This document shows, one piece after another, positions 12,713 through 30,690 of a stretch of 33,558 nucleotides of DNA (positions within the stretch are counted from its first letter, which is position 1; each line of letters starts with the position of its first letter). The notes below the pieces were generated by a model. That model was not told the DNA's origin and made no database searches. It saw only the letters and a program-made list of their open reading frames with translations. The stretch is from Candidatus Neomarinimicrobiota bacterium (GTDB lineage Bacteria; Fidelibacterota; Marinisomatia; Marinisomatales; S15-B10): positions 1 through 33,558 of the forward strand of contig JAZGBI010000037.1 of the NCBI GenBank assembly GCA_036476315.1, read 5' to 3'. Both the position numbers and the translations under genes were made by a program.

Positions 12713-12717
12713 CCAGA

Positions 12718-13397: not shown

Positions 13398-13448
13398 GGA
13401 GTGAACCATTTCCTGATGGTTCAGCATCATCGGGAGATGATGCACTCC
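13398..13448. repeat. Three-way-junction (cruciform) sequence
   Basis: Outer stem GGAGT (13398-13402) with ACTCC (13444-13448), enclosing two perfect hairpins: AACCAT/ATGGTT (13404-13421, 6-base loop) and GCATCATC/GATGATGC (13424-13443). The loop of the second hairpin is GGGA, a GNRA tetraloop, which hints at RNA. It might be a small structured RNA or a REP-like element; no gene is adjacent. Confidence 0.6.
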
Positions 13449-13493
13449 CTATTTCGGTACGATTAGGGTGAAATTCGTAGTTCTCATATAGAG

Positions 13494-13522
13494 TTGACAA
13501 ATGGACAAGTGGAACGTAAATT
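13494..13522 (+). promoter_or_regulatory. Sigma-70-type promoter candidate
   Basis: TTGACA (13494-13499), a 17-base spacer, then TAAATT (13517-13522). The -35 box is perfect and the -10 box matches four of six. A transcript would start near 13529 and run through hairpin-forming sequence (CACTC/GAGTG near 13560-13580 and others) for about 240 bases before the ExeA-like gene. Confidence 0.45.
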
Positions 13523-13720
13523 AGATCGATGCGGAGGAAACCCAGTGCCTTCCGACGGCCACTCTTCTTAGCACTGAGTGCCGGTTGCTCAAATTACCCG
13601 TCCCACCTCTATCTGTTTGCGTCATACTGACTCCTTTTCGGAGGCTCCTCATCTGAGGCGGCAAAAAAAGCTGACCGCTCATGTTTCAAAGTTGTTATGA
13701 GATACTTTCCGCAAGGGGAA

Positions 13721-13736
13721 TGGTCCAACGGTTGCA
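13721..13736 (+). promoter_or_regulatory. Sigma-54-type promoter candidate for the secretin operon
   Basis: TGGTCC, five bases, TTGCA. GG (13722-13723) and GC (13734-13735) are exactly ten bases apart. The -12 element is perfect and the -24 element matches four of six. The predicted start is near 13747, 19 bases before the GTG of the ExeA-like gene. If real, it places pilin genes and secretin genes under the same sigma-54 control. Confidence 0.5.
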
Positions 13737-13765
13737 ATAATACTGTATGGTTGGCGGGATAGTCT

Positions 13766-14590
13766 GTGGAATACTATGAAATGATCGGCCTCAGACGGGA
13801 GCCGTTTTCCACCTCGCCAGATCCGGAATACTTGTATCTGTCGGAGCAGCATAAGGAATGCCTTGATCGTCTTGAAATTTCTGTCCGGTTGCGAAGAGGA
13901 TTGAGTGTTATTATGGGCAGCGTCGGTACGGGAAAAACGTCGTTGAGTCGCAAGCTCATCCGGACATTCCAGAGTGATGGAAAGTACGATTTCTATCTCA
14001 TTCTCGATCCCAAATTTGATTCAGAATTTGAGTTTCTGGGCCACTTGATCGATCTTTTTCAGGTGGAATCCAGGGGCAATTCTGTACTTGAGTGCAAGGA
14101 TATTCTTGAGAATTTCTTCCTGAAGCGGGGTCTCGACGAGGATCGAATTATCGTTTTGATCATAGATGAAGGTCAGAATCTTACTCCTGAGTATTTGGAA
14201 GCTTTGAGAACATTGCTAAATTTTGAGACTGATGAGTTTAAGTTGCTCCAGCTGGTCATTTTTGCCCAACAGGAGTTCAGGAAGCTGCTCAAAGAGTATA
14301 AGAATTTCGGTGACAGGGTATCCACGGGATACGTTTTGAACCCTGTTAATAAAAAGGAAACCAGAGAGCTTATCGAGTTTCGCCTCGTAAAAAGCGGATA
14401 TGAGGGAAATCCCAAACTCTTCACTCAAGGAGCCATAGAGCAGATCTACAACTATACACAGGGGTATCCCAGGCGAATTATCACTTTGTGCCACAACCTG
14501 CTCGTTGAAATGATTATGTCGCAATCGAAGTCGGTAGGAAAGAGCCTGGTCGTTTCTGCCATAAGAAAAGAACGCACGTGGAATGCCTAA
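13766..14590 (+). CDS. ExeA/GspA/MshM-like AAA ATPase
   Basis: Protein of 274 residues. The N-terminus (MEYYEMIGLRREPFSTSPDPEYLYLS) is the ExeA family signature, supporting GTG 13766 as the start although an in-frame ATG lies at 13781. Walker A is GSVGTGKT (51-58). Walker B is VLIIDEGQN, with Asp134-Glu135. The C-terminus has the usual helical AAA lid (FTQGAIEQIYNYTQGYPRRIITLCHNLLVEMI). In Aeromonas ExeA helps the secretin assemble through peptidoglycan; here it lacks the periplasmic peptidoglycan-binding domain, so it is closer in size to MshM. It is the first gene of the secretin operon and overlaps the next gene by 8 bases. Confidence 0.88.
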   Translation: MEYYEMIGLRREPFSTSPDPEYLYLSEQHKECLDRLEISVRLRRGLSVIMGSVGTGKTSLSRKLIRTFQSDGKYDFYLILDPKFDSEFEFLGHLIDLFQVESRGNSVLECKDILENFFLKRGLDEDRIIVLIIDEGQNLTPEYLEALRTLLNFETDEFKLLQLVIFAQQEFRKLLKEYKNFGDRVSTGYVLNPVNKKETRELIEFRLVKSGYEGNPKLFTQGAIEQIYNYTQGYPRRIITLCHNLLVEMIMSQSKSVGKSLVVSAIRKERTWNA

Positions 14591-16682
14591 AGATAAGAAG
14601 GATAAAAAGGAAGCTGCAGCGAATAAACTCCTGAAGGTCCTCAGGGATCGGGATGTTGAGGCGGAAACGGAAAAGACACCTCCTCCAGAGTCACCTACCG
14701 CGGAAGTCACCCCGGAACATCTCAAGGAGGACGATGCTGAAGAATTGATCGGCGTTGGCCGACCTCGGGTCGAGGAGGAGCCGTTCCCCGATCAATCGAT
14801 CGATCCTGTTTCGTCCTGGGATAGGACACCTGAAGAAGATGTCTCCATAGGTACTGTTCCCCCCAACAGGGTAACTTCCCGGACAAAAAAGGAAGGAATT
14901 TCTGCCATACTCCACGAGATAATACGATATGTCAACTGTGATAAGGTTGTGACCGGCGTTTTGGTCGAGGGGGGGATGTTTGCAGTGGCGAGTGTCGAGG
15001 ATCAGAAGGGAACGAAGCGGCTCGTGGACTTTGCAGCTACTCAAATGGATCCGGATTTGGTTCTGGGGGGCGATGACGAGAGACAGCAGGCCGGAGCCGA
15101 AATTGTGGGGAAGCTTCTGTCAGAAAAGAACAACAAGCAAAAGTCCTTCTTCACACTCAAGGAAGAATTATCTCTACCGGGGAAAGTCGTATCCTGTTTT
15201 CCTGAGGCTGTTTCAGTGGTGAAAGATGTGGAGTTACCCAGCGTCGGCAAGAAAGAGCTGGCAGACGCGATTGAATGGAACGCGAAGAAGGATCTTCCCT
15301 TTGCTGAGGAGAAACTAATCATTGACCACATCAAACAGCCGGAAAACGGGGCCGCGGAAACAGGTGGGGGGCACAACCTTGTGGGTGTTTCCAGCGAAGA
15401 GTCCATAAACGACTCAGTTCAAGTCATGATCGACACAGTAGGAGTCCCGAGAAAAATCGCTCCTGCTGCTTATGCGGCCTGGAGCGCCTTTGTCTGGAAT
15501 TACCCTGAATTTTCAAAAGACGACACCATCGTCATTCACATAGGAGAGACCAAAACTGTTGTTCTATTCATTAGTGGCAAACTGCTTCGCTTTGTGCGGG
15601 AAATTCAGCTTGGTGGGATTGATTTTTCGAAGGCGATACCGGCTGAAATTACGCTCGGGAGCGACCGCGTCGTCGTAACGCCAAGGATGGCAGAGAAGTT
15701 GAGACAGGAATTTGAGATTCCCACCGGAAGAACACAGGGTTCAGACGAGGATGAGGCAAGGGATTCACAGCTGATGCCCCACTTTCGGAACACGCTGGAA
15801 AGATTTGTTGGAGCCATGACAAGGGCATTCAATGTCCATCGCAAGGAATTCCCCATGAACAGGGTCAAGAGGATCTTCCTGACGGGATCCGGCGCCGCCC
15901 TCGGAAACCTCTCATCCTACCTGAGCGAGGCTCTCGGCAAGAAAGTCCTGCTGCTTGATCCGGTTAGAATGCTCCTGGGAAAGGAGCTTCTCGATGATGG
16001 GGGCAACGATAACATGAATAGCCTTCATCTCAGCATTCCCATTGGACTGGCTCTGAACATTCACAGGGGCATAAACCTGCTTCCGAAAAGACTACGGCGC
16101 GAAGAGCTATTCCTGATTGTCAATCATGTGGGGCGAAAAGTACTCATCGCCTTGTTCGTTCTCTTTCTGAGCCTTTCCGGAATGACCCAGCTTGACCTTC
16201 TCGGTACACGAACTCAACTGGATATCCAGGAAAAGGTTGAGTCTCAGCTAACACCCATCAAGCATCGATATGACACACTGATTCAGGAACTGACAGAGAT
16301 GGGAGGTTACGGCGGCATGGTTGAATCCGACAGGAGATTCCATGAAAAGGAAGTGGCGATTCTAAAGATGCTGAGCAATGTCACCCCCAGAGAGATTTTC
16401 CTGACCTACCTCGGTTTTCGCGAAGGATGGGTGGTTTCGGAAAGCAGGCGCGTGGGTCGAGCAACGGTCACCGATACGGAAATAGAGGCGTCAGACGAAG
16501 ATTTCATCAGAATGGAGGGCCTGGTGGCGACCAATCCTGCCCTGCAGGAAGCATTTCTGGGGAATTATATTGCCACTCTTGAATCAAACGGACTGTTCGC
16601 GAATATTTCAATTGTGGATAAACGCCAGGATCTAAAACAGAGGACAGAAGGACTATCCTTTGTCTTGAAGTGTCAGCTATGA
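14583..16682 (+). CDS. PilM-PilN fusion protein
   Basis: Protein of 699 residues that joins two components of the T4P alignment complex. Residues about 1-100 are charged, Pro/Glu-rich and probably disordered. Residues about 105-490 resemble the actin-like PilM/ATPase-fold domain (LVEGGMFAVASV; DAIEWNAKKDLPF; DTIVIHIGETKTVVLFISGKLLRFVREIQLGG; IFLTGSGAALGNLSSYLSEAL). At 497 the sequence changes to INLLPKRLRREE, the conserved motif of the PilN N-terminus, followed by a membrane helix (about 519-534) and a periplasmic coiled-coil/ferredoxin-like part (to 699). In standard loci PilM binds that same INLLP peptide of a separate PilN; here it is covalently attached. It overlaps the ExeA-like gene by 8 bases and pilO by 4. 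Confidence 0.82.
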   Translation: MPKDKKDKKEAAANKLLKVLRDRDVEAETEKTPPPESPTAEVTPEHLKEDDAEELIGVGRPRVEEEPFPDQSIDPVSSWDRTPEEDVSIGTVPPNRVTSRTKKEGISAILHEIIRYVNCDKVVTGVLVEGGMFAVASVEDQKGTKRLVDFAATQMDPDLVLGGDDERQQAGAEIVGKLLSEKNNKQKSFFTLKEELSLPGKVVSCFPEAVSVVKDVELPSVGKKELADAIEWNAKKDLPFAEEKLIIDHIKQPENGAAETGGGHNLVGVSSEESINDSVQVMIDTVGVPRKIAPAAYAAWSAFVWNYPEFSKDDTIVIHIGETKTVVLFISGKLLRFVREIQLGGIDFSKAIPAEITLGSDRVVVTPRMAEKLRQEFEIPTGRTQGSDEDEARDSQLMPHFRNTLERFVGAMTRAFNVHRKEFPMNRVKRIFLTGSGAALGNLSSYLSEALGKKVLLLDPVRMLLGKELLDDGGNDNMNSLHLSIPIGLALNIHRGINLLPKRLRREELFLIVNHVGRKVLIALFVLFLSLSGMTQLDLLGTRTQLDIQEKVESQLTPIKHRYDTLIQELTEMGGYGGMVESDRRFHEKEVAILKMLSNVTPREIFLTYLGFREGWVVSESRRVGRATVTDTEIEASDEDFIRMEGLVATNPALQEAFLGNYIATLESNGLFANISIVDKRQDLKQRTEGLSFVLKCQL

Positions 16683-17284
16683 AAATGCCGAAGATCTCCC
16701 TCAATTTGACGAATCTCAGGGAGCAGAAGAAATTTATTGTCACGGTCTCCGTGACGAGCGTAATACTCCTTGTCTGGCTGCTGGCAATTCAATTACCGCT
16801 GACCAGGAATTATCATCAAGCCAGGTCAAAGCTGGAAGGCCTGGAAGTATCCAACACCGAAATTCGTGCCCTGCAGTCAAGACTCGGTGTACTCGTTGAA
16901 CAGAGAAACAAGTCGGTGAAAAACTATGCGGAAATTCTCAGAATGATTCCTGGGTCGGAAGGAGTTTCACAATCTGTGAGTGCTGTTTCTGTGCTCGCAT
17001 CTGAACACAATCTCAGGATGGAGATGTTTAATCCTTCAGCCGTTTCAATCGAGTCAGAAAAGTTCGTTCCCGTCGGCGAACTAAGTAACGTGTTGGTGGA
17101 AAAATATCCCATTGACGTTTCTTTGGAAGGTGATTACCGGGACTTTGGCTTCTTTTTGGACGATCTGAAGAAGCTGCCCTATCTGTACACGGTTAAGAAT
17201 CTGATAATTCAACCGACGATAACCGGCAATGCTCTTAAGCTGGACATGGTGATTTATGCCTATTTGCAGCGTGAGGTGGGCTAA
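16679..17284 (+). CDS. pilO: PilO-like pilus alignment protein
   Basis: Inner-membrane protein of 201 residues, with the start at ATG 16679 in an ATGA overlap with the upstream stop. A short basic cytoplasmic part (MKMPKISLNLTNLREQKK) leads to one membrane helix (FIVTVSVTSVILLVWLLAIQLPL), a coiled coil (about 45-85) and a periplasmic ferredoxin-like domain with the PilO-type motif YPIDVSLEGDYRDFGFFLDDLKKLPYL. PilO pairs with PilN and binds PilP. It is followed after 3 bases by pilP. Confidence 0.88.
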   Translation: MKMPKISLNLTNLREQKKFIVTVSVTSVILLVWLLAIQLPLTRNYHQARSKLEGLEVSNTEIRALQSRLGVLVEQRNKSVKNYAEILRMIPGSEGVSQSVSAVSVLASEHNLRMEMFNPSAVSIESEKFVPVGELSNVLVEKYPIDVSLEGDYRDFGFFLDDLKKLPYLYTVKNLIIQPTITGNALKLDMVIYAYLQREVG

Positions 17285-17287
17285 GGG

Positions 17288-17806
17288 ATGTTGACCACTC
17301 GTGTGAAGTTTCTCGCCGGTGTACTCGCTCTCTCCGTGTTGTTTCTTATTTATGATACCTTTCAGCGAAGTTCTGCAAAACCGAAATCTGCAACACCCCA
17401 ATCACAGGTATCGATGCCAGAGGTAGCTCCTCCGGAGAGCCCCGAGTCGGGCACGCGGAGAAACGTGATTCCTTCCAGTGCGAGAGTATTTGCTGGCGGT
17501 ATGAATCCCTTGGAAGGCTGGGGAAGAAATCCGTTTCTCAAACCGGTGGCTGCAGACATGACCAAACCGGTTGCGGAGGCGATTACCGAAAAGCTTGCGG
17601 CTTTGCCACCTGAGATGACTTTCACGGTTCCCGAGCTAACGGTATCAGCTATCACGTGGGCGTCCGGACAGGCGAAGGCTCTGATCAATGGTAGGATTCT
17701 CGGGGTGGGGGACGTGATAGAAGGGATGTTGATCATGGATATAGAGGAGGCCAGTGTTACCTTTCGGGGCGGTGGAAAAACCCTGACTCTTGAGGTGGGA
17801 ACCTGA
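17288..17806 (+). CDS. pilP: PilP-like pilus protein
   Basis: Protein of 172 residues that would link the PilN/PilO complex to the secretin in the periplasm. Unlike classical PilP it has no lipobox; it starts with an uncleaved-looking N-terminal membrane helix (LAGVLALSVLFLIYDTF). A Pro/Ser-rich linker follows, then a conserved NPF-type segment (GWGRNPFLKPV) and a C-terminal beta domain (LTVSAITWASGQAKALINGRILGVGDVIEG) typical of the PilP/GspC HR domain. The ATG follows the pilO stop by 3 bases with GGG nearby, and the secretin start follows its stop by 1 base. GspC-like anchoring is therefore also possible. Confidence 0.82.
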   Translation: MLTTRVKFLAGVLALSVLFLIYDTFQRSSAKPKSATPQSQVSMPEVAPPESPESGTRRNVIPSSARVFAGGMNPLEGWGRNPFLKPVAADMTKPVAEAITEKLAALPPEMTFTVPELTVSAITWASGQAKALINGRILGVGDVIEGMLIMDIEEASVTFRGGGKTLTLEVGT

Positions 17807-17807
17807 G

Positions 17808-19190
17808 ATGAGTGATCAACCTACGGCCTGGTTAACGCGGGCAATTCTACCGATAATCTCAACCATGTTGATGGCCAATCCATCAGATAATCGAGCGGAA
17901 CAGCCTGTTGGGGGTCGTCAGGGAGGCGAGACCGGTAATCCCACCGGTCGCATTGAGATTGGCGAGATAGACCCTCTTGACCAGCTGTTCTCTATTGACA
18001 TGGTTGAGGCTGATCTTACTGAAATTCTCAGGCTGATCGGTGAGCAGGCCGGTCTCAATATCATAGTGAGTTCCGAGGTTCAGGCAACCGTTACGGCTAA
18101 TTTGGACAACGTCACGGTGCGCTCTGCGCTCGATGTAATCCTGAAAACAAACGGGTTTAACTATTTCTTTCAGGAGAACATAATTGTTGTTAAGCCAGCG
18201 GGAACTGAAATGGTGGGAGAACTTGAGACCGAAATATTCAAGCTCGACTATATCAATTCGGAAGACCTGAGCCTTCCGCTTGCATCCGTTCTCACCCCCC
18301 GCGGCAAACTGGAAAGCTTCAAGAGAATTGTTGGAAAAGGCGGTGAGTCGAAGGCCGGTCCCTCCAATGTGGCTGTCGTCTCAGACGTTCATGAGAACTT
18401 CCCTCGGATTCGGAGCTTGATAAAGGAGCTTGATGTGGCTGTGCCTCAGGTGAATGTGGCCGTGAAATTCATTGAGACCACGCTAGACACATCCGAGGAG
18501 ATGGGAATAAACTGGAGTCCGTCTCCCCTTAGTCTCGGACCACCCGATACGCTCCTTGGGACTCGAGGATTTCCCCTGAAATTGAACAATTTCACCATGG
18601 CAACACTCAACCCGATCCAACTCACTTCCGCACTGAATTTCCTGAGGGGACGAGGAAAATCGAAGCTGCTTTCAAGCCCTCAAATCACAACGCTCGATAA
18701 TCAAGAGGCGGAGTTCGAAGTCGTAACAACCGTTCTTATTGAAAGACTTCAGCTGCAGACAGGGTCCCCATCCCGCGCGGGCGGAGCGGCTGCGGGTGGC
18801 ACTGGTGCTCAAGGGTTCGGTGGTGCCATCCCGTTCGTGAGCCTCGAGGAAAAGGACATCGGCATCAAAATGACGGTCACGCCGAGAGTGAATGAAGGTG
18901 GCTTTGTGACTATGGTGATTCAGGCAACAGTGGAAGCTCTTCTTTCCTCCGCCGAGATCGAAACCGAGAGACCGAAGACATCCAAACGTAGCGCTCAGAC
19001 TCAGGTGATCGTGGCTGACGGTGAGACTGTCATCATCGGGGGTCTCATGAGCGAAAACAACATAGAGTCAACAAAAAAGGTCCCCATTCTGGGGGACATC
19101 CCCGTCCTGGGAGTCCTTTTTAGATCCAAGAAGACAATTACTGAAAAGAGAGAACTTCTTATTTTTATCACTCCGACAATCGTAGGCTAA
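17808..19190 (+). CDS. pilQ: Secretin, PilQ/MshL/GspD family, short form
   Basis: Outer-membrane secretin through which the pilus leaves the cell. From ATG 17808 it has 460 residues with a signal-like hydrophobic stretch (AILPIISTMLMANPS). There is an STN/N0 domain (about 60-130: IDMVEADLTEILRLIGEQAGLNIIV), one further N domain (GRKLESF-like region to VAVPQVNVAVKFIE), and the C-terminal secretin core with VPILGDIPVLGVLF and ELLIFITPTIV at the end. At 460 residues it is shorter than Pseudomonas PilQ (over 700): AMIN domains and extra N1 repeats are absent. A Gly/Ala-rich stretch (about 325-345) sits at the usual gate position. It is the last gene of the operon. Confidence 0.92.
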   Translation: MSDQPTAWLTRAILPIISTMLMANPSDNRAEQPVGGRQGGETGNPTGRIEIGEIDPLDQLFSIDMVEADLTEILRLIGEQAGLNIIVSSEVQATVTANLDNVTVRSALDVILKTNGFNYFFQENIIVVKPAGTEMVGELETEIFKLDYINSEDLSLPLASVLTPRGKLESFKRIVGKGGESKAGPSNVAVVSDVHENFPRIRSLIKELDVAVPQVNVAVKFIETTLDTSEEMGINWSPSPLSLGPPDTLLGTRGFPLKLNNFTMATLNPIQLTSALNFLRGRGKSKLLSSPQITTLDNQEAEFEVVTTVLIERLQLQTGSPSRAGGAAAGGTGAQGFGGAIPFVSLEEKDIGIKMTVTPRVNEGGFVTMVIQATVEALLSSAEIETERPKTSKRSAQTQVIVADGETVIIGGLMSENNIESTKKVPILGDIPVLGVLFRSKKTITEKRELLIFITPTIVG

Positions 19191-19447: not shown

Positions 19448-22219
19448 TTGGTTAAAAAGAACCGGCCCTCGTTCTTCTATCTGTTTCTTTCGATCAGCAT
19501 CTCTATCATCTTTGTCGGCGTTTCGTTTTCCAAGATCTACAACAGCTTTGAGCTAAAAATGTTGGATGCAAGATTCAGAATTAGAGGGCCGATTTCCACA
19601 AGAACTGACATCGCCACTGTGGATATCGATGTTCGTGCCCTTCAGGAAGAAGGCCGGTTCCAGGATTGGTCCCGTGATAAGCACGAGAGAATCATCAGCT
19701 TTGCACACGAGCACGGGGTCAAAATGGTGGCCTTTGATATCTATTTCCCGGAGCGCAGCACCCGGTACATACTGGACAACGATCTCAACCTCCTGGATGA
19801 GGATGAGTTCAACAGCGAGACAGTTCGTGGTCTGATGCGGGATTACGACCATGGGATGGCCGTAGCGATGATTGAAGCGGGCAATGTCTATCTTGCTCAG
19901 AGCTTCAAGCCCTTGAGTGAGGGACAATACGACGCCCGACCCCGAACTCCATCTCAAGATCGGGCCTTGGAACTCCTGGAACCGTACTACCAAGAACACG
20001 CCGATACAATCGGACATTTCCTTTTTGGGTTTTATGATATCGAGCCTCCTATTCCTGACTTTATTTCCGCAAGCAAAGGAATTGCCTATGCTCAAGCTGT
20101 AGCGGATGATGATGGAGTTATCCGCCGGTATCCTCTCGTGGCCCAATACGACGGGAGGCTGTTTCCGTCCATGGCACTTCTGATGGCTTGCGACTATTTT
20201 GGTGTCGACTTCCGGGCTGTGAAGGTCGTGCCCGGTGATTACGTAGCTATTCCGAGAGGTGGGACAACGGGAAACAGCGGTGAGGCCCTTCGTATCCCCA
20301 TCTCAAAGGAAGGACATATGTTGGTCAACTGGGCAGGAGATTGGGAAGATGATTTTGAACATTTTCCCTACTCTTTACTGAAGGAGTTCTCTGAGGCTGA
20401 ACATCCGAACTATGTTCTCTCAGGAATAAAGTCGCTCATCCGGGAAAATCCTCTCCTGGTTCAAAATCCCAAAGCCCTCCTGGAAAAAGCGAAGGCCCTG
20501 AAGCTTGGACCGGAGCAGATAGTGAGGGACGCATTCTCAAAGGTCCTGATGGCGAAAAGCGTTGAGACTCTTCTTGAAGATAATCTCTCCATGGAAGTAA
20601 AGGACTTCTTTGAGTCTCAGGGTATTTCTCTCGACAAGGTTGCACCGGGGATGATACGCTTCTTTCAGGAGATCAAAACCAACCTCATGATCGAAAAGCT
20701 TCTTGCCGAAGATCAACAACTGAGCTATGATACACTCCTGGTCCGACTTAAGCTGGAGGGAGGCGCGCAGCTTAAGAGAAACTTCACCATCATCAGTAAT
20801 CTTCTCCGAACCCAGGGCACGGCGACCCATCAACACCCTCTTTACTTCTATTCATCGCCCACTGAGTATTCTCTGCAAGGGAAGGCCATTGCTCCCTTTG
20901 AGTTCCAGAACAAGATTCTCTTTTACGGTCTCACCGCGACAGGAACTCACGATCTCAATCCTATGCCGTTCAACCCGCGCTACCCGATGGTCGGCCTCCA
21001 CGCGAACGCCTTGAATACGATCCTCTCCCAGAATTTTATCCGACGGACCCCTAAAGTGTACGAGATTGCCATCATGTTAATAATAGGAATCATCCTGGGG
21101 CTACTTGTTCCACGGTTCCAGGCGGTGGTAGGGGCGGTTTCAACGGTCTCTCTTTGGGGTATGTACGCCTCCCTGAATGTGATAGCTTTCTCGAGATCAG
21201 CAGTATGGATCGACATTATCGGACCATCACTGATCTTCCTCTTCGGTTATCTTACTATAACCATCTACAACTACATCTCCGAAGAAAAGGACAAGAAGTT
21301 TCTCCACGAGACATTCAAGGCTTATCTATCCCCGGATCTTATCGACAAGATGTACGAGGAGAAACAGTCACCTCAATTGGGTGGTGAGGAACGTATTCTG
21401 ACTGCCATGTTTACGGATATCCAGAGCTTCTCTACAATTGCGGAGGAATTGGGGAGTCCTACCAAGCTTGTGGAATTGCTGAACGATTATCTAACGGCCA
21501 TGACTGACATCCTGCTTGAGCACGATGGGACGCTCGACAAGTACGAGGGGGACGCGATTATTGCCTTTTTTGGTGCGCCGGTTCCTATGGAAGATCATGC
21601 GGAAAAAGCCTTTCAGACGGCATTGGCTATGCAGAGCAGGCTTGTTGATCTTCGGAAAAACTGGTCATCAGAAGGCGAAAGGTGGCCTCAAATCGCAAAA
21701 GATATGCTTATGCGGATAGGCCTGAATTCAGGTCCCATTGTCACCGGGAATATGGGTTCCAGAACCAGGATGAATTACACCATGATGGGTGACGCGGTGA
21801 ATCTGGCGTCACGCCTGGAATCCATCGCCAAGCAATACGGCGTTTTTACCGCCTGCAGCGGCGAAACCCTGAATCTTGCCGGCGAAAGCAGTTTTGTGAC
21901 GAGGCTCATCGATCGAATCAGGGTGGTGGGGAAGAGTGAGCCGGTGAGTATGTTCGAACTCGTGGGCCTTCGCGGCGAGGTGAATTCGGAAGTAAAGGAA
22001 ATGCTGGACATGTTCGAGGAGGCGCAGGGATATTATTTTCAGCAGGATTGGAATCAGGCTATTGAATTATTCAAGAAGTGTCTGAATCTGGAGCCATACG
22101 AGAATCATCCCTCAACCTCCGTAACTCCTTCCAGGATGTTCATAGACCGGTGCGAGGAATTCATGGAAGTGCCACCTGAAGGGGAGTGGGATGGTGTCTA
22201 CACTGCTACCTCAAAATAG
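19448..22219 (+). CDS. CHASE2-domain class III adenylate cyclase
   Basis: Membrane sensor-cyclase of 923 residues, TTG start with AGAGGA ten bases upstream. One N-terminal membrane helix (about 9-27) is followed by a long extracytoplasmic CHASE2 domain (about 35-535: DARFRIRGP, VDIDVRALQEEGRFQDWSRD, VAFDIYFPE, DGVIRRYPL) with an insert of about 150 helical residues (about 310-460), then three membrane helices (about 537-610). The class III catalytic domain starts near 645 and has metal-binding Asp657 and Asp702, purine-specifying Lys698 (LDKYEGD) and Asp782 (MGDAVNLASRLE), and transition-state residues Asn785/Arg789, which favour ATP over GTP. A TPR-like hairpin (EEAQGYYFQQDWNQAIELFKKCLNLEP) ends the protein. 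The stimulus is unknown. The location next to a pilus locus invites a link to cAMP control of pili, as in Pseudomonas, but this is inference. Confidence 0.93.
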   Translation: MVKKNRPSFFYLFLSISISIIFVGVSFSKIYNSFELKMLDARFRIRGPISTRTDIATVDIDVRALQEEGRFQDWSRDKHERIISFAHEHGVKMVAFDIYFPERSTRYILDNDLNLLDEDEFNSETVRGLMRDYDHGMAVAMIEAGNVYLAQSFKPLSEGQYDARPRTPSQDRALELLEPYYQEHADTIGHFLFGFYDIEPPIPDFISASKGIAYAQAVADDDGVIRRYPLVAQYDGRLFPSMALLMACDYFGVDFRAVKVVPGDYVAIPRGGTTGNSGEALRIPISKEGHMLVNWAGDWEDDFEHFPYSLLKEFSEAEHPNYVLSGIKSLIRENPLLVQNPKALLEKAKALKLGPEQIVRDAFSKVLMAKSVETLLEDNLSMEVKDFFESQGISLDKVAPGMIRFFQEIKTNLMIEKLLAEDQQLSYDTLLVRLKLEGGAQLKRNFTIISNLLRTQGTATHQHPLYFYSSPTEYSLQGKAIAPFEFQNKILFYGLTATGTHDLNPMPFNPRYPMVGLHANALNTILSQNFIRRTPKVYEIAIMLIIGIILGLLVPRFQAVVGAVSTVSLWGMYASLNVIAFSRSAVWIDIIGPSLIFLFGYLTITIYNYISEEKDKKFLHETFKAYLSPDLIDKMYEEKQSPQLGGEERILTAMFTDIQSFSTIAEELGSPTKLVELLNDYLTAMTDILLEHDGTLDKYEGDAIIAFFGAPVPMEDHAEKAFQTALAMQSRLVDLRKNWSSEGERWPQIAKDMLMRIGLNSGPIVTGNMGSRTRMNYTMMGDAVNLASRLESIAKQYGVFTACSGETLNLAGESSFVTRLIDRIRVVGKSEPVSMFELVGLRGEVNSEVKEMLDMFEEAQGYYFQQDWNQAIELFKKCLNLEPYENHPSTSVTPSRMFIDRCEEFMEVPPEGEWDGVYTATSK

Positions 22220-22240: not shown

Positions 22241-22408
22241 GCCACGAAGGAACACGAAGTAACACTAAGAATCTTAAGAGCTTAGAGACAAATGATACTT
22301 TTGACTGTCTCGAAATACTTTTGGTGAAAAAATGAATTCAAGTTTTTGTTTTTATACTCTTTGTGTATCTTAGCGTTCTTAGTGGCGAATCTCAAGATCC
22401 CGTGGATA
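22241..22408. repeat. Symmetric CACGAAG/CACTAAG array plus AAGATCC element
   Basis: The left arm (22241-22278) has units GCCACGAAG, ACACGAAG, ACACTAAG and TCTTAAG. The right arm (22351-22385) is their reverse complement (complement units ACACAAAG, CGCTAAG, GCCACTAAG). The arms are about 75 bases apart. The right arm runs directly into GGCGAATCT then CAAGATCC (22384-22400), the element also found at 12652-12712, which ends GGATAAT; its final AT plus the next G form the ATG of the FG-GAP gene at 22409. Confidence 0.72.
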
Positions 22409-25400
22409 ATGAAGGTTAGAAGATTCCTGTCCCCAGTTATTGTTTGCCTGATAGCGTTCTTCCAGGGTGTTGCATCTGCCTCGGTTGACTCCCAGGATAC
22501 AATTTTTGTTGAAGATGAGAGCCTTCGAGGGACGCTTATCCAGTTTGCGGGCGGGGAAAGTGCCTGGGGATTTCTCAACGAAGACACGATTCCTGACCTT
22601 GCCCACACCGGCTACTCGGATTCGCTGGGAGGAACGATTGTCTCCATCTATTTCTTCAACGGGGAGGGTGAGATTGACACGATGCAATCTCTAACGGCCG
22701 GATTAATAAGCGATCCCGCCGGAGGGTTTGGCAGCATCGCTCTGGGTGATTATGACAATGATGGAGATCTGGATATTCTGGTAACGGGAGGAGCTGCGGC
22801 CGTTCTGTTCGAAAATGACTCGACAGGCAGGTTTGTCTCTTCTGTGCTGACTCATTTTCCTTTTCTGGTCTACAGCAAGGGACGATGGATCGACCTGGAC
22901 AATGACGGTGATCTCGATCTTTTCATCATGGGTCTGGACGCTATTGAGGAGAGACTCGTTACGAAAATCTACTTGAACGGTCCTCTGGGGACCTTTGTGG
23001 CTGATGAGACGCAAATCCTGGCCAATCTCGCCAATGGTGACGCAGCGTGGGGTGACTATGATAATGATGGCGACCTGGATCTTGTTGTGGCAGGTCAAAG
23101 TACCGACGTCCTTTCTCATGTCATCAAGGTATTCAAAAACGAGCCCACCGGTCGTCTGGTGGAGGATCCTAATCCGAAGTTGACCGGATTGAAAGCCGCC
23201 ACTGTTTCATGGGGTGATTACGATAATGATGGCGATCTCGACCTGATAAGCACAGGGTGGGATGGCGTGAGTCCGGCGACTTATATCTATGAGAACGAGC
23301 CAGTGGGGACTCTGTCTGAAGAAAAGAATCAGATTTCTTTTGGAGTCACTTACGGTTCAACGAATTTGGGCGATCTGAACAATGACGGAAATCTCGACAT
23401 GATATTGACGGGCGCCGACAGTGTCAGCGCGGATGCAGAGACACTTCTTGTGCACACGGCCAAGGTCTATCTGGGTGATGGAGACGGTCTGTTCACGGAG
23501 ATTCAAACGATCGAGGGAGCCATTAACGGTAGCTTCGGTGACTACGACGGAGACGGTGACCTGGACCTGTTTGTCAATGGATATGCCGTTCCGGGAAGCT
23601 TGAACACTGCTTACGCCAAGATTTTCACCAACACTGTCGAGGTGGCAAACGAAGATCCTTCTCCTCCCGCTTCTCTATCGTCTTTCGCCGTGGGCAATAA
23701 GGTGACCCTGACCTGGAGTCAGGGCTCTGACGACAGGACGCCAAAATCAGCGCTGGTTTACAACGTCAGAATGGGAACGTTGGCCAATGGGAACGCAATC
23801 CTTTCCGGGACGGTGCCTCTTGGGGTTGGAAACATTGGGCAGGGGCTTATCAAAGTTTTTCGGGATATTCCTCCGGGAACTTACGTCTGGAGCGTTCAAG
23901 CCATTGACCAAGGGCTGCACGCTTCGGAGTGGTCCACTGAAGATACTCTAATCATTCAGCGCCTGGTAAAATCTAACCAATCACTGTCAGGCGTTTGGTT
24001 CAATACAGCGTCGTGGAATGATTACGACAATGACGGGAACCTGGATCTCGCCTTAACCGGTATTTCTTTTGCTCTTGGTGATACGGCTACAAGGTTATTC
24101 AAGAATGAACCGCCGGGAAGGCTGTCCCAGGATTTAGCGCAAGACATTCGGGCCGTGTGGGGAGGATCCATGGCCTGGGGTGATTACACGAACGACGGCT
24201 TTCTCGATTTTGTTATTTCCGGGCTGGATGGGCTGGCTCCAGCGACGTACCTGTATGAATGGGTTGAATCGGAACGGAAATTCAGGCTGGATGCAACGCA
24301 GGAAGTATCCCAGGTCTGGGGAGGAAATCAGAATTCGGACTGGGCCGACTACGACAATGACGGTGACCTGGATCTCGTTGTGGGAGGTCTCGATTTTGAC
24401 AGCCAGATGATTCTCAAGATCTTTCACAACGATACGTCAAGTATATTTATGGAAGACACACTGCAGAACCTTGAGCCTCTGTGGCCTTGTGTCAATAGAT
24501 GGATAGATTTCGACGCTGACGGTTTCGTCGATCTTTTTACATCCGGCGTGAGCTCGGACAGCATCTATTTCCAGAAGATCTACATCAATGATTCCCGGGG
24601 TCTATTTGTCGAAAGCATCTCTCAGATAGGTGAGGGAGTGAAGGCGGGGGCCGCTGCCTGGGGTGACTTCGACAGTGATGGATTTCCCGATCTCGCGGTA
24701 ACCGGGCTTCATGACACGGGAGAGCTCACGCTGAAAGTATTCAATAATGAGGACGGCATCTCATTAACGCAGGTGGTAGCATTCCCAGGTGTCTATTTTG
24801 GTTCCCTGGATTGGGGTGATTATGACAACGACGGTGATTTGGATCTCGTGGTCTCAGGGAATTCCACTTTCTTCGGAGAGATTGGTGCTGATCCTGTGAC
24901 CCACGTTTACCGCAACGATACCGGGGACGATTCGACAGCTTTCGTTCAAGATGATTCGCTGTTCCTTGAAGGAGCGGGTGCAAGTACCGTACTGTGGGGA
25001 GACTATAACGGGGACGGTGATCTGGATCTCCTTGTGGCTGGTAACAGCTCCTCCGGCGATGAGTTTTCACTGGTCTACGATAATCTTGAATCGATCGAAA
25101 ACGCGAACCTGCCGCCTCAGGCGCCTTCGGGACTTCTGGCTCTTGTGGATACCCTGGAGGCGACCATTAACCTGGAGTGGCTTCAAGCGGAGGATCAAAT
25201 CTCCCCTGCATACGGTTTTACCAGGTCCGAGGGTCTGACCTATAACCTGCAGGTTGGAAACAGTGATGGAGGGCATGAAATTGCTTCCGGTAACCTGTCC
25301 TATGGACTCGGATCCCGGGGACCTGGCGAACAGGCGTATTTGCGCGATATTGATACATCGCCTCCTGGAGTGGATACGGTGATTGCGACATTCGGGTCCG

Positions 25401-26485
25401 GCATTGCAGCAAGGCAGATTAACCTGGTCATCAGATTTCTCGAGACGGGGGTCTACTACTGGCGTGTGCAGGCGGTGGATAACGGCTTTGCCCGGTCTGA
25501 CTGGTCTTCCACCCAATCATTCTATTTCGGGATGAACAACAACGTTGCTCCGGATGTCGCCATCCTCCATCCTGGAAGGGCATTTCCAGACACCATTTGG
25601 GCGACCCAGCAGAGTTTTTCGGAAAATGTCTGGACCGGAAGTCTCGTCTTGCCGGATACAGGATTTTCAGGTGAGGCGATAGAAATAGTGATTCAAAGGG
25701 CCAGAAATATGGCGGGAATTGACATGATGCCCACCACATTTTACCGGTCACCGTCAAAAGTCACGAGGGCGGAGGGAGGAACGGTTATCAGTGACGACGG
25801 GATGGTAACGCTTCAGCTCTCCCCGAACTCCGTACCCGAAGATGACGTGGTCAAGATCCGTGCTCTGGCATCGTCTCCTCCCGACAGCCAGGGAGCAGTT
25901 CCAGTCACGAGATTGTACCGAATCTCTGGCGAGACTTCCGTGCTAAGAAAACCAGCGGTCCTCCGTATGGTATACGACACCTCCCTCGTCTCTCTTTCTT
26001 CGCTTCCGTATGATCCCGACTCATTGTTCATCGGTCATGTCTCAAACACCGATTCGACTGTACGCTGGGCCGGAGGAACGATTGATACAACGGCTGGGTC
26101 CCGCAGAATCACCACCTGGATTGATACATTAGGTCTCTATGCCGTCTTTGAAAATCGAGGATTTCAGGTCCCTGCTTTCAAGGCACTCGATAATCTGACG
26201 TGTCAACCCAGAATTTTCTCTCCAGGAGGAGGTGTATTTGACGCAAGAACAAACATTCTTTTCGATTTGAACGAAAATGAGAAAGTAACCATTAGAATCT
26301 TCAACCCTGCTGGCCGGCTTAAGCGAACAGTCGTCTCGGGCGACCTTATGCAAAAAGGTTCCAACGCAGTTTCCTGGGATGGAATGGATGATGAAGGCCA
26401 GGTGCTGGTAAGCGGGCTATATATCATCACCGTTGAAACGTCAAGAAAGACCGGAGCGACGACCGTGGGTGTTTTGAACAAATGA
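22409..26485 (+). CDS. Large exported FG-GAP/VCBS repeat protein with FlgD-like C-terminal domain
   Basis: Secreted protein of 1358 residues from ATG 22409; the frame is open back to TTG 22346, but the ATG gives a clean signal peptide (MKVRRFLSPVIVCLIAFFQGVASA). I count 13 calcium-binding repeats of the DYDNDGDLDL kind, in two blocks of six and seven, which would fold as FG-GAP beta-propellers. Each block is followed by a fibronectin-III-like domain ending in a YVWSVQAIDQG or YYWRVQAVDNG motif. After a further beta-sandwich region, the C-terminus is a FlgD-type Ig domain (FDLNENEKVTIRIFNPAGRL ... GMDDEGQVLVSGLYIITV), a frequent end domain of exported FCB-group proteins. Surface attachment or adhesion is the usual inference. 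It overlaps the next gene by ATGA, so the two products are made together. Confidence 0.9.
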   Translation: MKVRRFLSPVIVCLIAFFQGVASASVDSQDTIFVEDESLRGTLIQFAGGESAWGFLNEDTIPDLAHTGYSDSLGGTIVSIYFFNGEGEIDTMQSLTAGLISDPAGGFGSIALGDYDNDGDLDILVTGGAAAVLFENDSTGRFVSSVLTHFPFLVYSKGRWIDLDNDGDLDLFIMGLDAIEERLVTKIYLNGPLGTFVADETQILANLANGDAAWGDYDNDGDLDLVVAGQSTDVLSHVIKVFKNEPTGRLVEDPNPKLTGLKAATVSWGDYDNDGDLDLISTGWDGVSPATYIYENEPVGTLSEEKNQISFGVTYGSTNLGDLNNDGNLDMILTGADSVSADAETLLVHTAKVYLGDGDGLFTEIQTIEGAINGSFGDYDGDGDLDLFVNGYAVPGSLNTAYAKIFTNTVEVANEDPSPPASLSSFAVGNKVTLTWSQGSDDRTPKSALVYNVRMGTLANGNAILSGTVPLGVGNIGQGLIKVFRDIPPGTYVWSVQAIDQGLHASEWSTEDTLIIQRLVKSNQSLSGVWFNTASWNDYDNDGNLDLALTGISFALGDTATRLFKNEPPGRLSQDLAQDIRAVWGGSMAWGDYTNDGFLDFVISGLDGLAPATYLYEWVESERKFRLDATQEVSQVWGGNQNSDWADYDNDGDLDLVVGGLDFDSQMILKIFHNDTSSIFMEDTLQNLEPLWPCVNRWIDFDADGFVDLFTSGVSSDSIYFQKIYINDSRGLFVESISQIGEGVKAGAAAWGDFDSDGFPDLAVTGLHDTGELTLKVFNNEDGISLTQVVAFPGVYFGSLDWGDYDNDGDLDLVVSGNSTFFGEIGADPVTHVYRNDTGDDSTAFVQDDSLFLEGAGASTVLWGDYNGDGDLDLLVAGNSSSGDEFSLVYDNLESIENANLPPQAPSGLLALVDTLEATINLEWLQAEDQISPAYGFTRSEGLTYNLQVGNSDGGHEIASGNLSYGLGSRGPGEQAYLRDIDTSPPGVDTVIATFGSGIAARQINLVIRFLETGVYYWRVQAVDNGFARSDWSSTQSFYFGMNNNVAPDVAILHPGRAFPDTIWATQQSFSENVWTGSLVLPDTGFSGEAIEIVIQRARNMAGIDMMPTTFYRSPSKVTRAEGGTVISDDGMVTLQLSPNSVPEDDVVKIRALASSPPDSQGAVPVTRLYRISGETSVLRKPAVLRMVYDTSLVSLSSLPYDPDSLFIGHVSNTDSTVRWAGGTIDTTAGSRRITTWIDTLGLYAVFENRGFQVPAFKALDNLTCQPRIFSPGGGVFDARTNILFDLNENEKVTIRIFNPAGRLKRTVVSGDLMQKGSNAVSWDGMDDEGQVLVSGLYIITVETSRKTGATTVGVLNK

Positions 26486-29298
26486 ACCTCACCGTTGACT
26501 TCCCGATGAGCGTCGATCGGTGTGGCGTCGTCAGACTCCTGTTCATTCTGGTCCTTGGAGTGAATTCGGCGTTCCCGCAGGGAGAAGAACAGGTATTCGT
26601 GGGGTCCCGCCCCCTGGGCATGGGCGAGACATTCGTCGCCGTCGCCGACGATGGGAACACCATCTATTGGAACCCCGCTGGACTCCCCGGTCTGCGAAGG
26701 CAGGAAATCACCACAAGCTACACTGATCTATTCGGTCTGGCGATCATCAATAGCTACGTCGGTTACGTCCTTCCCTTGAGGGACGAATTCGCCCTGGGCC
26801 TCGATTGGTATTATCTCGGATTTGATGATGAGGAGCTTGGGTACTCCCGCAATAAAGTGAATTTCGCCTTTGGCTTCCAGCTCTTCCAGAGAGTTGCTCT
26901 CGGAGGTAACATCAAGTACATTTTCAATGATATGAGTCTGGACGGGACGTCGTACGGCAGAAGTTCCGGAGTCGGATGGGATTTCGGAGTGCTGATCACT
27001 CCATGGCCGAAACTGAGAATCGGTCTGGTGGGGTACGACATTTCTGGGACGTCGGTCACGTATGACAACAATATCGAAGAAGAAATTCTCAGTCAGAAGA
27101 TGCGAGCCGGACTTGCATGGAAACCCCGTGAAGGTCTAACAATAGCACTTGACGTTGATGACCGCTGGCATTTGGGGGCGGAGTACTGGATATTGGAAGG
27201 ACTCGGAATACGAGGGGGTGTCCAAAGGGATCGCCGGACGCACAAGTCGGATCCGCCGTTGATTGTTCCTTCTGCAGGCATTGGATTGAGATACAAAGCA
27301 CTGAGATTTGATTATAGCTTTGAACAGAATCCTTATCTGTACCCCACCCATCGATTTTCCCTTTCGTTTCAGCTTCGTCCGGCACTTGTGAGCATTACCT
27401 CTGCGTCAGTCCTGCATACGCCGTTATTCAGATCGTTATACCACTTTTATGAGGATGAGGAATTCGCTCAGGTGACTCTAAAGAATTCAGCGGACAAAGA
27501 TTTGCCTGTAAAAGTATCGCTGTACGTACCTACGATGATGGAAACTCCACACGAAGAGAACATCGTCTTGCCGGCGAAGACCGTTCAGGAGTATACTCTC
27601 GGGGCGACATTCTCCGATGACATTCTGACATCCCCTCGTGCGCCATTCGACAACCTTGTCCAACCCGAGGTGAAAATCTCCTACACTCAAGAAAGACAGG
27701 AAAAATTCGCTCAGAAGAAAATGGATCCTACGTACGTATTGGGACGGGGCAAAATAAGCTGGGCCGAGCCTGAAAGAATCGCCAGCTTCGTTATGCCGGA
27801 GGATCCCGCGGTGGATCGAGTAGCCAAGTACTATATTGGATACTATGCGCCGATTCTCAAGAATTACCTGAATCGTTCGAATCTCGGCAGAGCCATGATA
27901 TTGTTTGACGCACTGGGAAGTCAGGGACTGTCATACGGTCCCGATCCTCAAACCCCCTTTCTGCAAATCTCGAAAGACCGGAGTGCATTCGATACGGTGA
28001 AATATCCTGTTGACTTGCTGAAAACGAAGGTGGGAGACTGCGACGATCTCACAGTGCTGTACGGGTCCTTACTGGAGAATTTGGGAATTGCTACAAGATT
28101 TCTCGACGTATTTGCTCCGGGTGAGGGGCACATATTCTTGATGTTTGACAGCGGTGTATCTCCTCAATCCGTGGAAGAGACTTTCCTGCAGCAATCTGAC
28201 GTGGCCATCGTGGATGGTCGCGTATGGATCCCCGTGGAAACCACTCTGGTGGGACAACCCTTCTTTCTCGCGTGGCAGCAAGGGGCTTTCGAGTACCAAA
28301 AGCGCAAGAACGAACAGACCATGAATGAGATTGACGTTCGCCGAAGCCAGCAAACGTACCGACCTGGAAGCATTGAAGGCATTTACGACACGGTTCTGGA
28401 AGAGAAAGGTGTAAGTGATCTTCTAAAAGCCGATCTCGAACAGTACAGTCTCATGATACAGCAAATCGTGTTTCGCCAAACAGGAAATCTGCGGAGCGCG
28501 GAGGATTATTATGACGCGGCGGCCATTTATTTGGATTTCTCCCGCCTGTCAGAGGCCATGGAGATGCTGGAAGATGCTCTAAGGCTCAGGAAGAATTTTC
28601 CAGACGCCGTCAATACCCTCGGCGTTGTCTACACGAAAATGGGGGAGTACGACGCGGCCATAGAACAGTACAACCGGGCCCTAAAGCTCTTGCCCGATCA
28701 CCCGGGATTCAAATTGAACATTGCCATTACTCACTACCTTCAAGGAAAAAAGATTCTTGCCCAACAGGAATATGAGGAAGTAGTGAGATTAGACCCCAAT
28801 TTTGCGGGAGGGTTGGATCTGCTCCTGGGGATTCAGGAGAGAGACGAGGGAGGACCCCCGGAGGAACCTATCCAGTTTATGAAAGAGATATCCCCCTTAA
28901 TCGTGACCGAAGAGCTTGAAACGGAAATCTCTCCCCCGGCGCGTCAGATGTGGCTGGGAGCTGAGGGAGAAGATGTGAGAGACCGGGCTCCTGAGGTCGA
29001 AGCGCTGGAGACGTTCAGAAAAAGGAAAGCTAAGAGCGATAACGCGGTAGGACTGGCCTTTGCCCGCCGGGGAAACATGGAGATGGCCGCGGATTTCTTT
29101 CGAAGGGCTCACAGATCTGATCCTGACAATACCGGTTACCTGGTGAACCTCGCCACGGCTCACTATGTCCTTGGACGATATGATGCCGCGCTAATGGAAT
29201 ACGATGAAATCGCAATCCGGAATCCTGAACTGCTTCCGCAGTTGAAATTCATCGTGAGCAAGGGCAAGGAAAGAGCTGGAATCAGGCTCTTTGAGTAG
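26482..29298 (+). CDS. PorV-like barrel / transglutaminase-like / TPR fusion protein
   Basis: Exported protein of 938 residues; signal-like stretch after ATG 26482 (VVRLLFILVLGVNSAFPQG). Residues about 30-300 resemble the PorV/UPF0164 outer-membrane barrel: the start FVGSRPLGMGETFVAVADD, then NTIYWNPAGL, alternating beta strands, and FRFDYSF-like ends. Residues about 300-470 form an unassigned beta/helical linker. A transglutaminase-like domain follows, with Cys520 (VGDCDDLTVLYGSLLENLGI), His550 (GHIFLMFD) and WIPVETT, where the third catalytic Asp would be Glu. From about 670 to the end are TPRs (AAIYLDFSRLSEAMEMLEDAL; DAVNTLGVVYTKMGEYDAAIEQYNRAL; and others). I know no standard protein with this order. 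It is translationally coupled to the FG-GAP protein and may secrete, anchor or process it; that is inference. Confidence 0.82.
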   Translation: MNLTVDFPMSVDRCGVVRLLFILVLGVNSAFPQGEEQVFVGSRPLGMGETFVAVADDGNTIYWNPAGLPGLRRQEITTSYTDLFGLAIINSYVGYVLPLRDEFALGLDWYYLGFDDEELGYSRNKVNFAFGFQLFQRVALGGNIKYIFNDMSLDGTSYGRSSGVGWDFGVLITPWPKLRIGLVGYDISGTSVTYDNNIEEEILSQKMRAGLAWKPREGLTIALDVDDRWHLGAEYWILEGLGIRGGVQRDRRTHKSDPPLIVPSAGIGLRYKALRFDYSFEQNPYLYPTHRFSLSFQLRPALVSITSASVLHTPLFRSLYHFYEDEEFAQVTLKNSADKDLPVKVSLYVPTMMETPHEENIVLPAKTVQEYTLGATFSDDILTSPRAPFDNLVQPEVKISYTQERQEKFAQKKMDPTYVLGRGKISWAEPERIASFVMPEDPAVDRVAKYYIGYYAPILKNYLNRSNLGRAMILFDALGSQGLSYGPDPQTPFLQISKDRSAFDTVKYPVDLLKTKVGDCDDLTVLYGSLLENLGIATRFLDVFAPGEGHIFLMFDSGVSPQSVEETFLQQSDVAIVDGRVWIPVETTLVGQPFFLAWQQGAFEYQKRKNEQTMNEIDVRRSQQTYRPGSIEGIYDTVLEEKGVSDLLKADLEQYSLMIQQIVFRQTGNLRSAEDYYDAAAIYLDFSRLSEAMEMLEDALRLRKNFPDAVNTLGVVYTKMGEYDAAIEQYNRALKLLPDHPGFKLNIAITHYLQGKKILAQQEYEEVVRLDPNFAGGLDLLLGIQERDEGGPPEEPIQFMKEISPLIVTEELETEISPPARQMWLGAEGEDVRDRAPEVEALETFRKRKAKSDNAVGLAFARRGNMEMAADFFRRAHRSDPDNTGYLVNLATAHYVLGRYDAALMEYDEIAIRNPELLPQLKFIVSKGKERAGIRLFE

Positions 29299-30192
29299 GG
29301 AACAGGACTTGAATCCCGCAGCTGGTTTTCTCCTCACTTTTTCTCGATTTTGTCGAGATCACTGAATCTCAAGATTCTGTGGAGAATCGTCGCTAAGTGA
29401 TGTGAGGGTCTTTGTGCTTTTTGTCTTGATACAAAAAGCACGAAAAAAATCAAGGCTGGATTCCTCCGGGCTGGGCCGTCATTGGTTTCCTCGAAAGAAA
29501 CCAAACTCCCCCGATAGTCATCGGGGTCAGACAAGGATTCTTTCTTAACGGAAACCGCCTCCGGTTCTATTACGCCCGAAGGAATTAGGTCGGTTAAGAA
29601 ACCTTGATAGTCGATACCATTGCGGAGATCTTCAGACAGTTGTGGACTCTCCAAATGGGATTATTCGAATAATCTTCCGGGCTAGATACTTCAGATACGT
29701 CGAAATGAGAGCGGGAGTATCCTTCTTGGTGCCGATTCATCGGCACCATCAGTGGCCCTAAAAGAATTTGCGCAATAAAGGGGATGCCAAGTCCGTGGAA
29801 GAGAATCAATTACTGTTTGAGTCCTCCCGACTTGTCGGGGGGAGGAGTTTAATTGATTCCCACGGACGCAGGCAGTCCCGCCCAAATTATTTTCCAGCCA
29901 AAGGCCTTTTGGTACTTTTCTGCCTGAGAAAAGTACAGAGAGAAACACTCTGTAGATAATCTCACAATGAGAACGTGGAGGAATCCGAGGAACGGAAGTT
30001 CCTGGGACAGCACTCAGATTGAACAATCACCACAAGATTCTATGTAGTTCCGGCAGACAGGATCGGCAGACAGCATCGGTCTTGTATCTGACCGCCGGAA
30101 TGTGTAAAATAGTGATGAACACGATCTGGTTTGTGTGACGGTGGTGGAAAAAACATGAATTTGGTTAAGTACCGGGAGCTCGGGGAGAAATT
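29299..30192. repeat. 894-bp gap packed with perfect hairpins
   Basis: No credible gene. Nine or more inverted repeats follow one another: TCTCGA/TCGAGA (29342-29358), an 11-bp stem GTGCTTTTTGT/ACAAAAAGCAC (29414-29441) whose loop CTTGAT can pair with ATCAAG at 29449-29454, TTGGTTTC/GAAACCAA (29482-29504), CCCCGAT/ATCGGGG (29509-29526), TTTCTTAAC/GTTAAGAAA (29541-29601, enclosing smaller ones), ATTATTCGAATAAT (29660-29673), a 10-bp stem TGGTGCCGAT/ATCGGCACCA (29727-29748), a composite stem of 8 bp plus 10 bp (29791-29867) with a GC-rich inner hairpin, and GTACTTTTCT/AGAAAAGTAC (29912-29936). From about 30050 to 30080 is a CGGCAGACAG direct repeat. GGGGAG before 30193 is the next ribosome site. 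Confidence 0.75.
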
Positions 30193-30690
30193 ATGAGATA
30201 CGCATCAACCACGATTAGTCTATTGACGACGCTCTTTCTGTCAAGTTATCTTGGGGCGGCACTTCAAGACACAGCCGAACAGAAGGACAGTTCACCTGGA
30301 AAGGAAGAACAGGCGGATCTTTCTGATATCTGGCTCAATACCGTATGGAAGAATATCGACGAGATCACGACAACAAAGGAATCGTTTGATGTGGAGAAGG
30401 TTACTACTGTAGCGGGCGTTCGCGGAGCAGAGGCAGAAGATGAGGCTACGAATGAACTGTACTACAGGGGAAGTATGCGTTCCCCGAGTATGGAGGATTT
30501 GAAATCAGCGATAGAGAGGTTGGAGGGCCTTATCGAAGACGACCCGGATGGAGAAAAGGCGCCGGAATTCAGATACTATGTTATCCAATGCTATCTTCAG
30601 TTGGGGAACGAGGACAAGGCTGGAGAACTGGGGGAAAAGCTTCTTGAAGACCACCCAGATTCGAAGTGGGCGGCGCTGTATAAGAAATAA
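30193..30690 (+). CDS. Small exported protein with TPR-like C-terminus
   Basis: Protein of 165 residues with a signal peptide (MRYASTTISLLTTLFLSSYLGAALQ). The ATG is preceded by CGGGGAGAAATT, a good ribosome site. The middle is acidic and low in structure signals (about 25-95). The last 65 residues form helical pairs with TPR character (EDLKSAIERLEGLIEDDPDG, FRYYVIQCYLQLGNEDKAGELGEKLLEDHP). No catalytic motif is visible. It is probably periplasmic or lipid-free at the outer membrane; its role is unknown. It converges on the minus-strand gene at 30717 with only 26 bases between stops and no visible terminator. Confidence 0.75.
   Translation: MRYASTTISLLTTLFLSSYLGAALQDTAEQKDSSPGKEEQADLSDIWLNTVWKNIDEITTTKESFDVEKVTTVAGVRGAEAEDEATNELYYRGSMRSPSMEDLKSAIERLEGLIEDDPDGEKAPEFRYYVIQCYLQLGNEDKAGELGEKLLEDHPDSKWAALYKK

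Follow-up and report, generated by a model that had tools for sequence, protein, structure and literature searches.

It is already known in principle that a CHASE2 cyclase can have a partner in the outer membrane or a TPR partner, and several described systems illustrate this. In Campylobacterota, a CHASE2 adenylate cyclase clusters with a FecR outer-membrane protein and a TPR protein (PMC9239204), and the accessible part of a report on S. meliloti describes the CHASE2 cyclases CyaD1, CyaD2 and CyaK as responding through the outer-membrane barrel NsrA (PMC13001267). In magnetotactic bacteria, a CHASE2 cyclase gene comes next after the gene for the Ig and TPR protein MtxA (PMC4439547), and a FecR/LysM protein has been found paired with a CHASE2 kinase (PMC5192318). 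The inputs of CHASE2 domains are largely unknown, and the module described here provides concrete candidates for the signal source of a CHASE2 cyclase. It comprises four genes, coding for a CHASE2 cyclase, an FG-GAP repeat protein, a barrel fused to an Ig-like, a transglutaminase-like and a TPR part, and a small TPR protein, and it lies in a stretch of 33,558 nucleotides of a Candidatus Neomarinimicrobiota genome (contig JAZGBI010000037.1), which was analysed as a whole and is called the window below. Both the architecture of the fusion protein and the four-gene module appear to be undescribed in the searchable papers, a scope that left most subscription papers outside: neither was found there, nor did papers on PorV with transglutaminase, on T9SS in Marinimicrobia or on CHASE2 with FG-GAP describe the architecture.

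The barrel gene (26482–29298, plus strand; an open ORF with an ATG start) encodes a protein of 938 residues, in which a first-pass annotation, made from the letters alone, had seen an N-terminal PorV-like barrel, a transglutaminase-like domain and C-terminal TPRs in an unfamiliar order. All three parts were recovered by profile or model, together with an Ig-like domain that had been missed. The barrel (residues 37–298; 26590–27375, plus strand) matches the NCBIfam family PorV_fam (NF033709) over residues 40–297 with 96.3 bits against a curated cut-off of 90, which assigns it to the PorV/PorQ family, and it is an ortholog of neither PorV (NF033710, 27.1 bits, cut-off 250) nor PorQ (NF033711, 17.2 bits, cut-off 220). 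The full-length model, which is weak overall (pLDDT 63), gave barrel-type fold matches to FadL and to the PorV of two T9SS translocon structures (6h3i and 8gl6). The barrel is followed by a conserved Ig-like sandwich (residues 299–428; 27376–27765, plus strand), which precedes the transglutaminase-like domain, is predicted with high confidence and returned Ig-type domains when the first half of a separate model of residues 300–645 was used in a fold search. The chain ends in two TPR blocks (residues ~646–790 and ~842–926; 28417–29259, plus strand), which are helical in the model and have strong matches to Pfam TPR families (TPR_1, E 1e-20) from about residue 680 on.

The transglutaminase-like domain (residues 429–606; 27766–28299, plus strand) matches Pfam Transglut_core (PF01841) at residues 504–586 with 21.0 bits, just below the gathering score of 23, and its assignment also draws on conserved residues and on the model. 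The Cys520, His550 and Glu-for-Asp of the first-pass annotation proved to be invariant in 23 of 23 close relatives (codons at 28039–28041, 28129–28131 and, for Glu586, 28237–28239, plus strand), and they are also kept in remote relatives, including Poribacteria-, delta- and Ignavibacteria-labelled proteins. Since the third conserved acid is Glu in all relatives, where Asp is usual, the replacement is, judging by the alignment, a family feature and no defect of the window's copy. Structure prediction of the triad had been named as a check, and residues 300–645 were folded from a diverse alignment of 25 sequences, a region chosen after the poor full-chain model (mean pLDDT 90, pTM 0.88). In the predicted topology, Cys520 stands at the start of a helix, His550 at the start of a strand and Glu586 just past a strand, an arrangement that fits a transglutaminase-like fold; support from the fold search was more qualified, with transglutaminase 2 and two putative cysteine proteases returned at significant E-values and at low TM-scores over the two-domain chain. 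A sequence search of solved structures with this region gave no convincing match, and Pfam returned no match to LapG / Peptidase_C93 at E<=0.1 in the barrel protein. A weak similarity to the anti-phage protein ProA (NCBIfam NF058533, E 9e-8, residues 390–628), on which the literature search found no paper, most likely reflects a shared transglutaminase-like domain.

Single-chain relatives of the barrel protein occur in 27 of the 245 genomes of the phylum, the full-length ones at 46–63% identity. Besides the window's genome, the carriers belong to two further families of its order, and the nine remaining genomes of its own family all lack such a relative. A scan of GTDB contigs returned 45 relatives, from Neomarinimicrobiota and from MAGs labelled Latescibacterota, Gemmatimonadetes and Handelsmanbacteria, as well as more remote relatives labelled Poribacteria, Deltaproteobacteria and Ignavibacteriales, all of these phylum labels being the submitters' own. 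Since Latescibacterota- and Gemmatimonadetes-labelled rows are intermixed in the tree, the two labels may stand for a single phylum. At least two or three phyla share the conserved domain order, which is not unique to the window. What survives of the earlier claim of an unfamiliar order is that no published role was found for it. The window's protein groups in the tree with a genome of family f10, so that loss within the window's family or transfer are both possible. We also considered a contaminant contig, and misbinning is not indicated: the G+C content of the window is 0.496, against 0.493 for the other genome pieces, and the tetranucleotide correlation between the two is 0.74, where the other pieces, split into two halves, correlate with each other at 0.78.

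Directly upstream of the barrel gene lies the gene of the FG-GAP repeat protein (22346–26485, plus strand; PF13517 and PF13860), which has a FlgD-Ig/T9SS-CTD-like C-terminus. Its ORF is drawn from a TTG, and by eye the true start is likely an ATG at about 22409. The ATGA in which its stop overlaps the start of the barrel gene (26482–26485, plus strand by the ORF coordinates) had been pointed out in the first-pass annotation and is kept in the Neomarinimicrobiota relatives. The type IX context that had been suggested for the pair is present in the genome, with SprA (SprA_N, 137.7 bits), PorU (697.6 bits), 41 T9SS-type CTD matches and other PorV-like barrels; no PorV there scores over the ortholog cut-off, and no match to PF12081 (GldM/PorM) was found in the genome, where a divergent motor is possible. 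The type A CTD of the FG-GAP protein itself (26246–26452) is marginal, with 18.6 bits for the whole protein and 22.3–23 in the genome scan (cut-off 23), and 13 of 14 FG-GAP relatives have a Por_Secre_tail at E<=0.01. SprA, PorU and the CTDs of the genome, together with the PorV-family score, the PorV fold match and the translational coupling through the ATGA, are what would be expected of a dedicated T9SS shuttle or anchor for the FG-GAP protein, the barrel taking the CTD, the transglutaminase-like domain trimming or handling the cargo and the TPRs holding partners, with the cyclase as a regulator that merely shares the locus. We regard this, the main rival explanation, as unlikely while giving it real weight. 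The barrel scores far under both ortholog cut-offs (27 against 250 and 17 against 220 bits), and the same genome offers ~40 further CTD matches and PorV-like barrels besides this one. SprA is found in 223 of the 245 genomes, making T9SS near-universal in the phylum, and the barrel protein in about 28 of them, so the barrel protein is not a general part of T9SS, and T9SS is independent of the module.

The conserved neighbourhood carries the argument further. Wherever the flanking DNA of a full-length relative is long enough, an FG-GAP gene lies directly upstream, which answers the question of partner co-occurrence raised by the first-pass annotation, and a small TPR gene directly downstream, and the same loci contain a CHASE2 class III cyclase on the strand of the barrel gene. 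In the window these correspond to a small secreted TPR protein (30193–30690, plus strand), recognized by Pfam and by the alignment of its relatives, and to a CHASE2 class III adenylate cyclase (19448–22219, plus strand; PF05226 and PF00211). The cyclase gene lies ~4 kb upstream of the barrel gene in Neomarinimicrobiota and ~1.2 kb downstream of it in Latescibacterota/Gemmatimonadetes-labelled loci. Across nine aligned CHASE2 cyclases, D657, K698, D702, T778, N785 and R789 are invariant, and this D/K/D/T/N/R set is the adenylate-cyclase pattern of class III enzymes; the window's cyclase would accordingly be of the adenylate-cyclase type, with intact catalytic residues. The small TPR protein likewise occurs in 27 of the 245 genomes, 26 of them in common with the barrel protein (hypergeometric P about 9e-33), and the two mismatches fall at contig ends: in genome G145 the contig breaks inside the barrel gene, the last part of which is present, and in G070 it ends within the barrel gene, so that the small TPR gene cannot be judged. 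Because the FG-GAP gene is no more constant than the cyclase or the small TPR protein, the module is larger than the barrel/FG-GAP pair, and the same constancy counts against a shuttle with the FG-GAP protein as its cargo. The earlier proposal that the barrel exports, cross-links or anchors this partner therefore keeps its link to the partner and loses its limits.

Some local features of these loci deserve mention. Six Latescibacterota/Gemmatimonadetes-labelled loci (L095, L097, L101, L104, L107 and L108) apparently have two FG-GAP proteins before the barrel gene, the second of which in L095 has, by eye, an ASPIC/UnbV-like end. The barrel and small TPR genes are separated by ~895 bases in the window (29299–30192), by ~345 in the nearest relative (L046) and by ~25 in several f13 relatives; the window's spacer has no Rfam match, as is true of the entire window, and contains one 14-nt inverted repeat at 29411–29444.

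Remote versions of the protein suggest which parts belong together. Outside the phylum, identity in the transglutaminase-like domain is still 41–51%, falling to 37% in the Poribacteria-labelled protein. The delta- and Ignavibacteria-labelled proteins have lost the barrel: other N-termini stand in its place, and identity over that region is down to 18–20%; that the enzyme-like domain is still ~41% identical in such relatives is a further point against the shuttle or anchor. An Ignavibacteriales-labelled locus encodes a transglutaminase-like protein with a different N-terminus and then a CHASE2 cyclase. In the Poribacteria-labelled locus, the fusion of PorV and transglutaminase-like domain comes after a protein with a FlgD-Ig-like C-terminus and has a CHASE2 histidine kinase two genes on. 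As the pairing of transglutaminase-like domain and CHASE2 recurs in remote versions that lack the barrel or have another output, the enzyme-like domain and the CHASE2 sensor look like the core, with the barrel as a means of placing the enzyme-like domain at the outer membrane. The flanks of one delta-labelled locus with the transglutaminase-like and TPR part (L110) gave no CHASE2 cyclase match.

Between the PorV fusion and the histidine kinase of the Poribacteria-labelled locus there is a second, short transglutaminase-like protein (L109:5246-6181), which lacks the Cys motif and has PVWTQ in place of PVETT at the acid position; it is probably not catalytic. A FecR domain in this second protein seemed possible by eye and was dropped, having no Pfam support. 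In the window's family, CHASE2 cyclases of other genomes (L128, L132 and L133) adjoin FecR proteins (PF04773), and in L132 and L133 a protein of ~910 residues with no Pfam match stands between the FecR protein and the cyclase.

Upstream of the module, the window contains type IV pilus assembly genes (13766–19190, plus strand), identified by profile matches as those of an AAA ATPase, PilM/N-like, PilO and PilP-like proteins and a secretin. In family f13, too, the module stands directly behind the pilM-N-O-P-secretin genes, with short gaps, which is the basis for supposing that the TPRs and the barrel aid secretin or pilus assembly in the manner of PilW/Tgl-type TPR proteins. We hold a pilus accessory of this kind to be very improbable: the weak TPR similarity to Tgl and PilW is generic and far under the family cut-offs, and none of the window's pilus assembly genes found a match in the flanks of the Latescibacterota/Gemmatimonadetes-labelled loci. 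Before the pilus genes are 1.3 kb with no convincing gene (12461–13765), containing a perfect 16-nt inverted repeat (13146–13161/13318–13333) as well as direct repeats that are short and degenerate, and before these a phosphoesterase-like protein (11273–12460) with C-terminal repeats that by eye are MORN-like; the repeat part matches opposite-strand DNA just past the module in several f13 loci.

The reading that we favour, tentatively and as somewhat short of probable, is that the barrel/transglutaminase-like/TPR chain is the envelope arm of a four-part CHASE2-cAMP signalling module, in which it takes FecR's place. It is suggested by published CHASE2 cyclases whose function or gene neighbourhood involves outer-membrane barrels, FecR and TPR proteins. 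PorV-type barrels have both ends on the periplasmic side, so the Ig/transglutaminase-like/TPR part should be periplasmic, and the CHASE2 domain is likewise periplasmic. With this topology, which we infer by analogy, the FG-GAP beta-propeller protein would be exported by T9SS through its C-terminal domain, with the PorV-like barrel either holding it or serving to sense it, and the Ig/transglutaminase-like/TPR part would hang in the periplasm, its enzyme-like domain perhaps active as a protease or a cross-linker. If the proteins make contact, this periplasmic arm and the small TPR protein could relay the state of the surface protein inward, to the periplasmic CHASE2 domain of the inner-membrane cyclase; the output would be cAMP, and in Neomarinimicrobiota the module may be wired to the type IV pilus genes. 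A periplasmic location would also make it hard for the Ig/transglutaminase-like/TPR part to cross-link a protein that has already reached the surface, as the first-pass annotation had supposed. Several points count against signalling, namely the delta-labelled locus without a cyclase match, the change of side of the cyclase gene between phyla, the restriction of the pilus link to Neomarinimicrobiota, the marginal T9SS signal of the FG-GAP protein and the FecR domain, of which the Pfam scan found none among the module proteins. Signalling and a role in secretion or anchoring can be true together.

The small TPR proteins share ten residues, VAGVRGAEAE (~30409–30438), that are identical in 15 of 15 copies across groups and phyla, at an overall identity to the window's copy of 33–57%, and that are likely a docking or processing site. 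Such a motif in an otherwise divergent secreted partner, along with the invariant Cys/His/Glu and the fold matches to putative cysteine proteases, would suit a LapG-like device, in which a periplasmic cysteine protease, under cyclic-nucleotide control, would release or activate an adhesin or the small TPR protein by cutting it when required. TVAG resembles the LapG site, a likeness that may be chance. We consider the device improbable, given that Pfam has no LapG family match and that no LapD-like c-di-GMP receptor was seen among the scanned neighbours. LapG does resemble the present protein in its transglutaminase-like fold with Cys/His/acid and in its surface-protein context; it differs in belonging to another Pfam family, and here the domain is fused to a barrel, the third residue is Glu and the messenger would be cAMP, not c-di-GMP. 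Distinctly improbable, in our estimate, is a proteolytic trans-envelope cAMP circuit, whereby a putative protease tethered at the outer membrane and gated by the T9SS-exported beta-propeller would cut the small TPR protein at VAGVRGAEAE and thereby switch the cyclase.

A CHASE2-cAMP module of the kind that we favour would mean that a fixed four-gene set in uncultivated FCB-type phyla links cAMP to a secreted surface protein, a barrel in the outer membrane and a periplasmic domain of enzyme-like type, and it suggests that the PorV barrel was put to another use than general secretion. With PorV the protein has in common the barrel family, by sequence and by fold, and a partner with a T9SS-CTD-like end; it differs by its score far under the ortholog cut-off, by about 640 extra residues and by its accessory distribution. 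MtxA is similar as a secreted Ig-like and TPR protein adjoining a CHASE2 cyclase, and is described without a barrel and without a transglutaminase-like domain. The NsrA system, which we set beside the module by role, likewise has an outer-membrane barrel upstream of CHASE2 cyclases and cAMP, and the accessible part of its report (PMC13001267) mentions no fused transglutaminase-like domain of the kind present here. The cluster of Campylobacterota (PMC9239204) shares with our locus the joint encoding of a CHASE2 cyclase, an outer-membrane partner and a TPR protein; the module described here has no FecR domain, and in it the partner is a PorV barrel fused to an Ig/transglutaminase-like/TPR part, with an FG-GAP protein of T9SS-CTD-like C-terminus added to the set.
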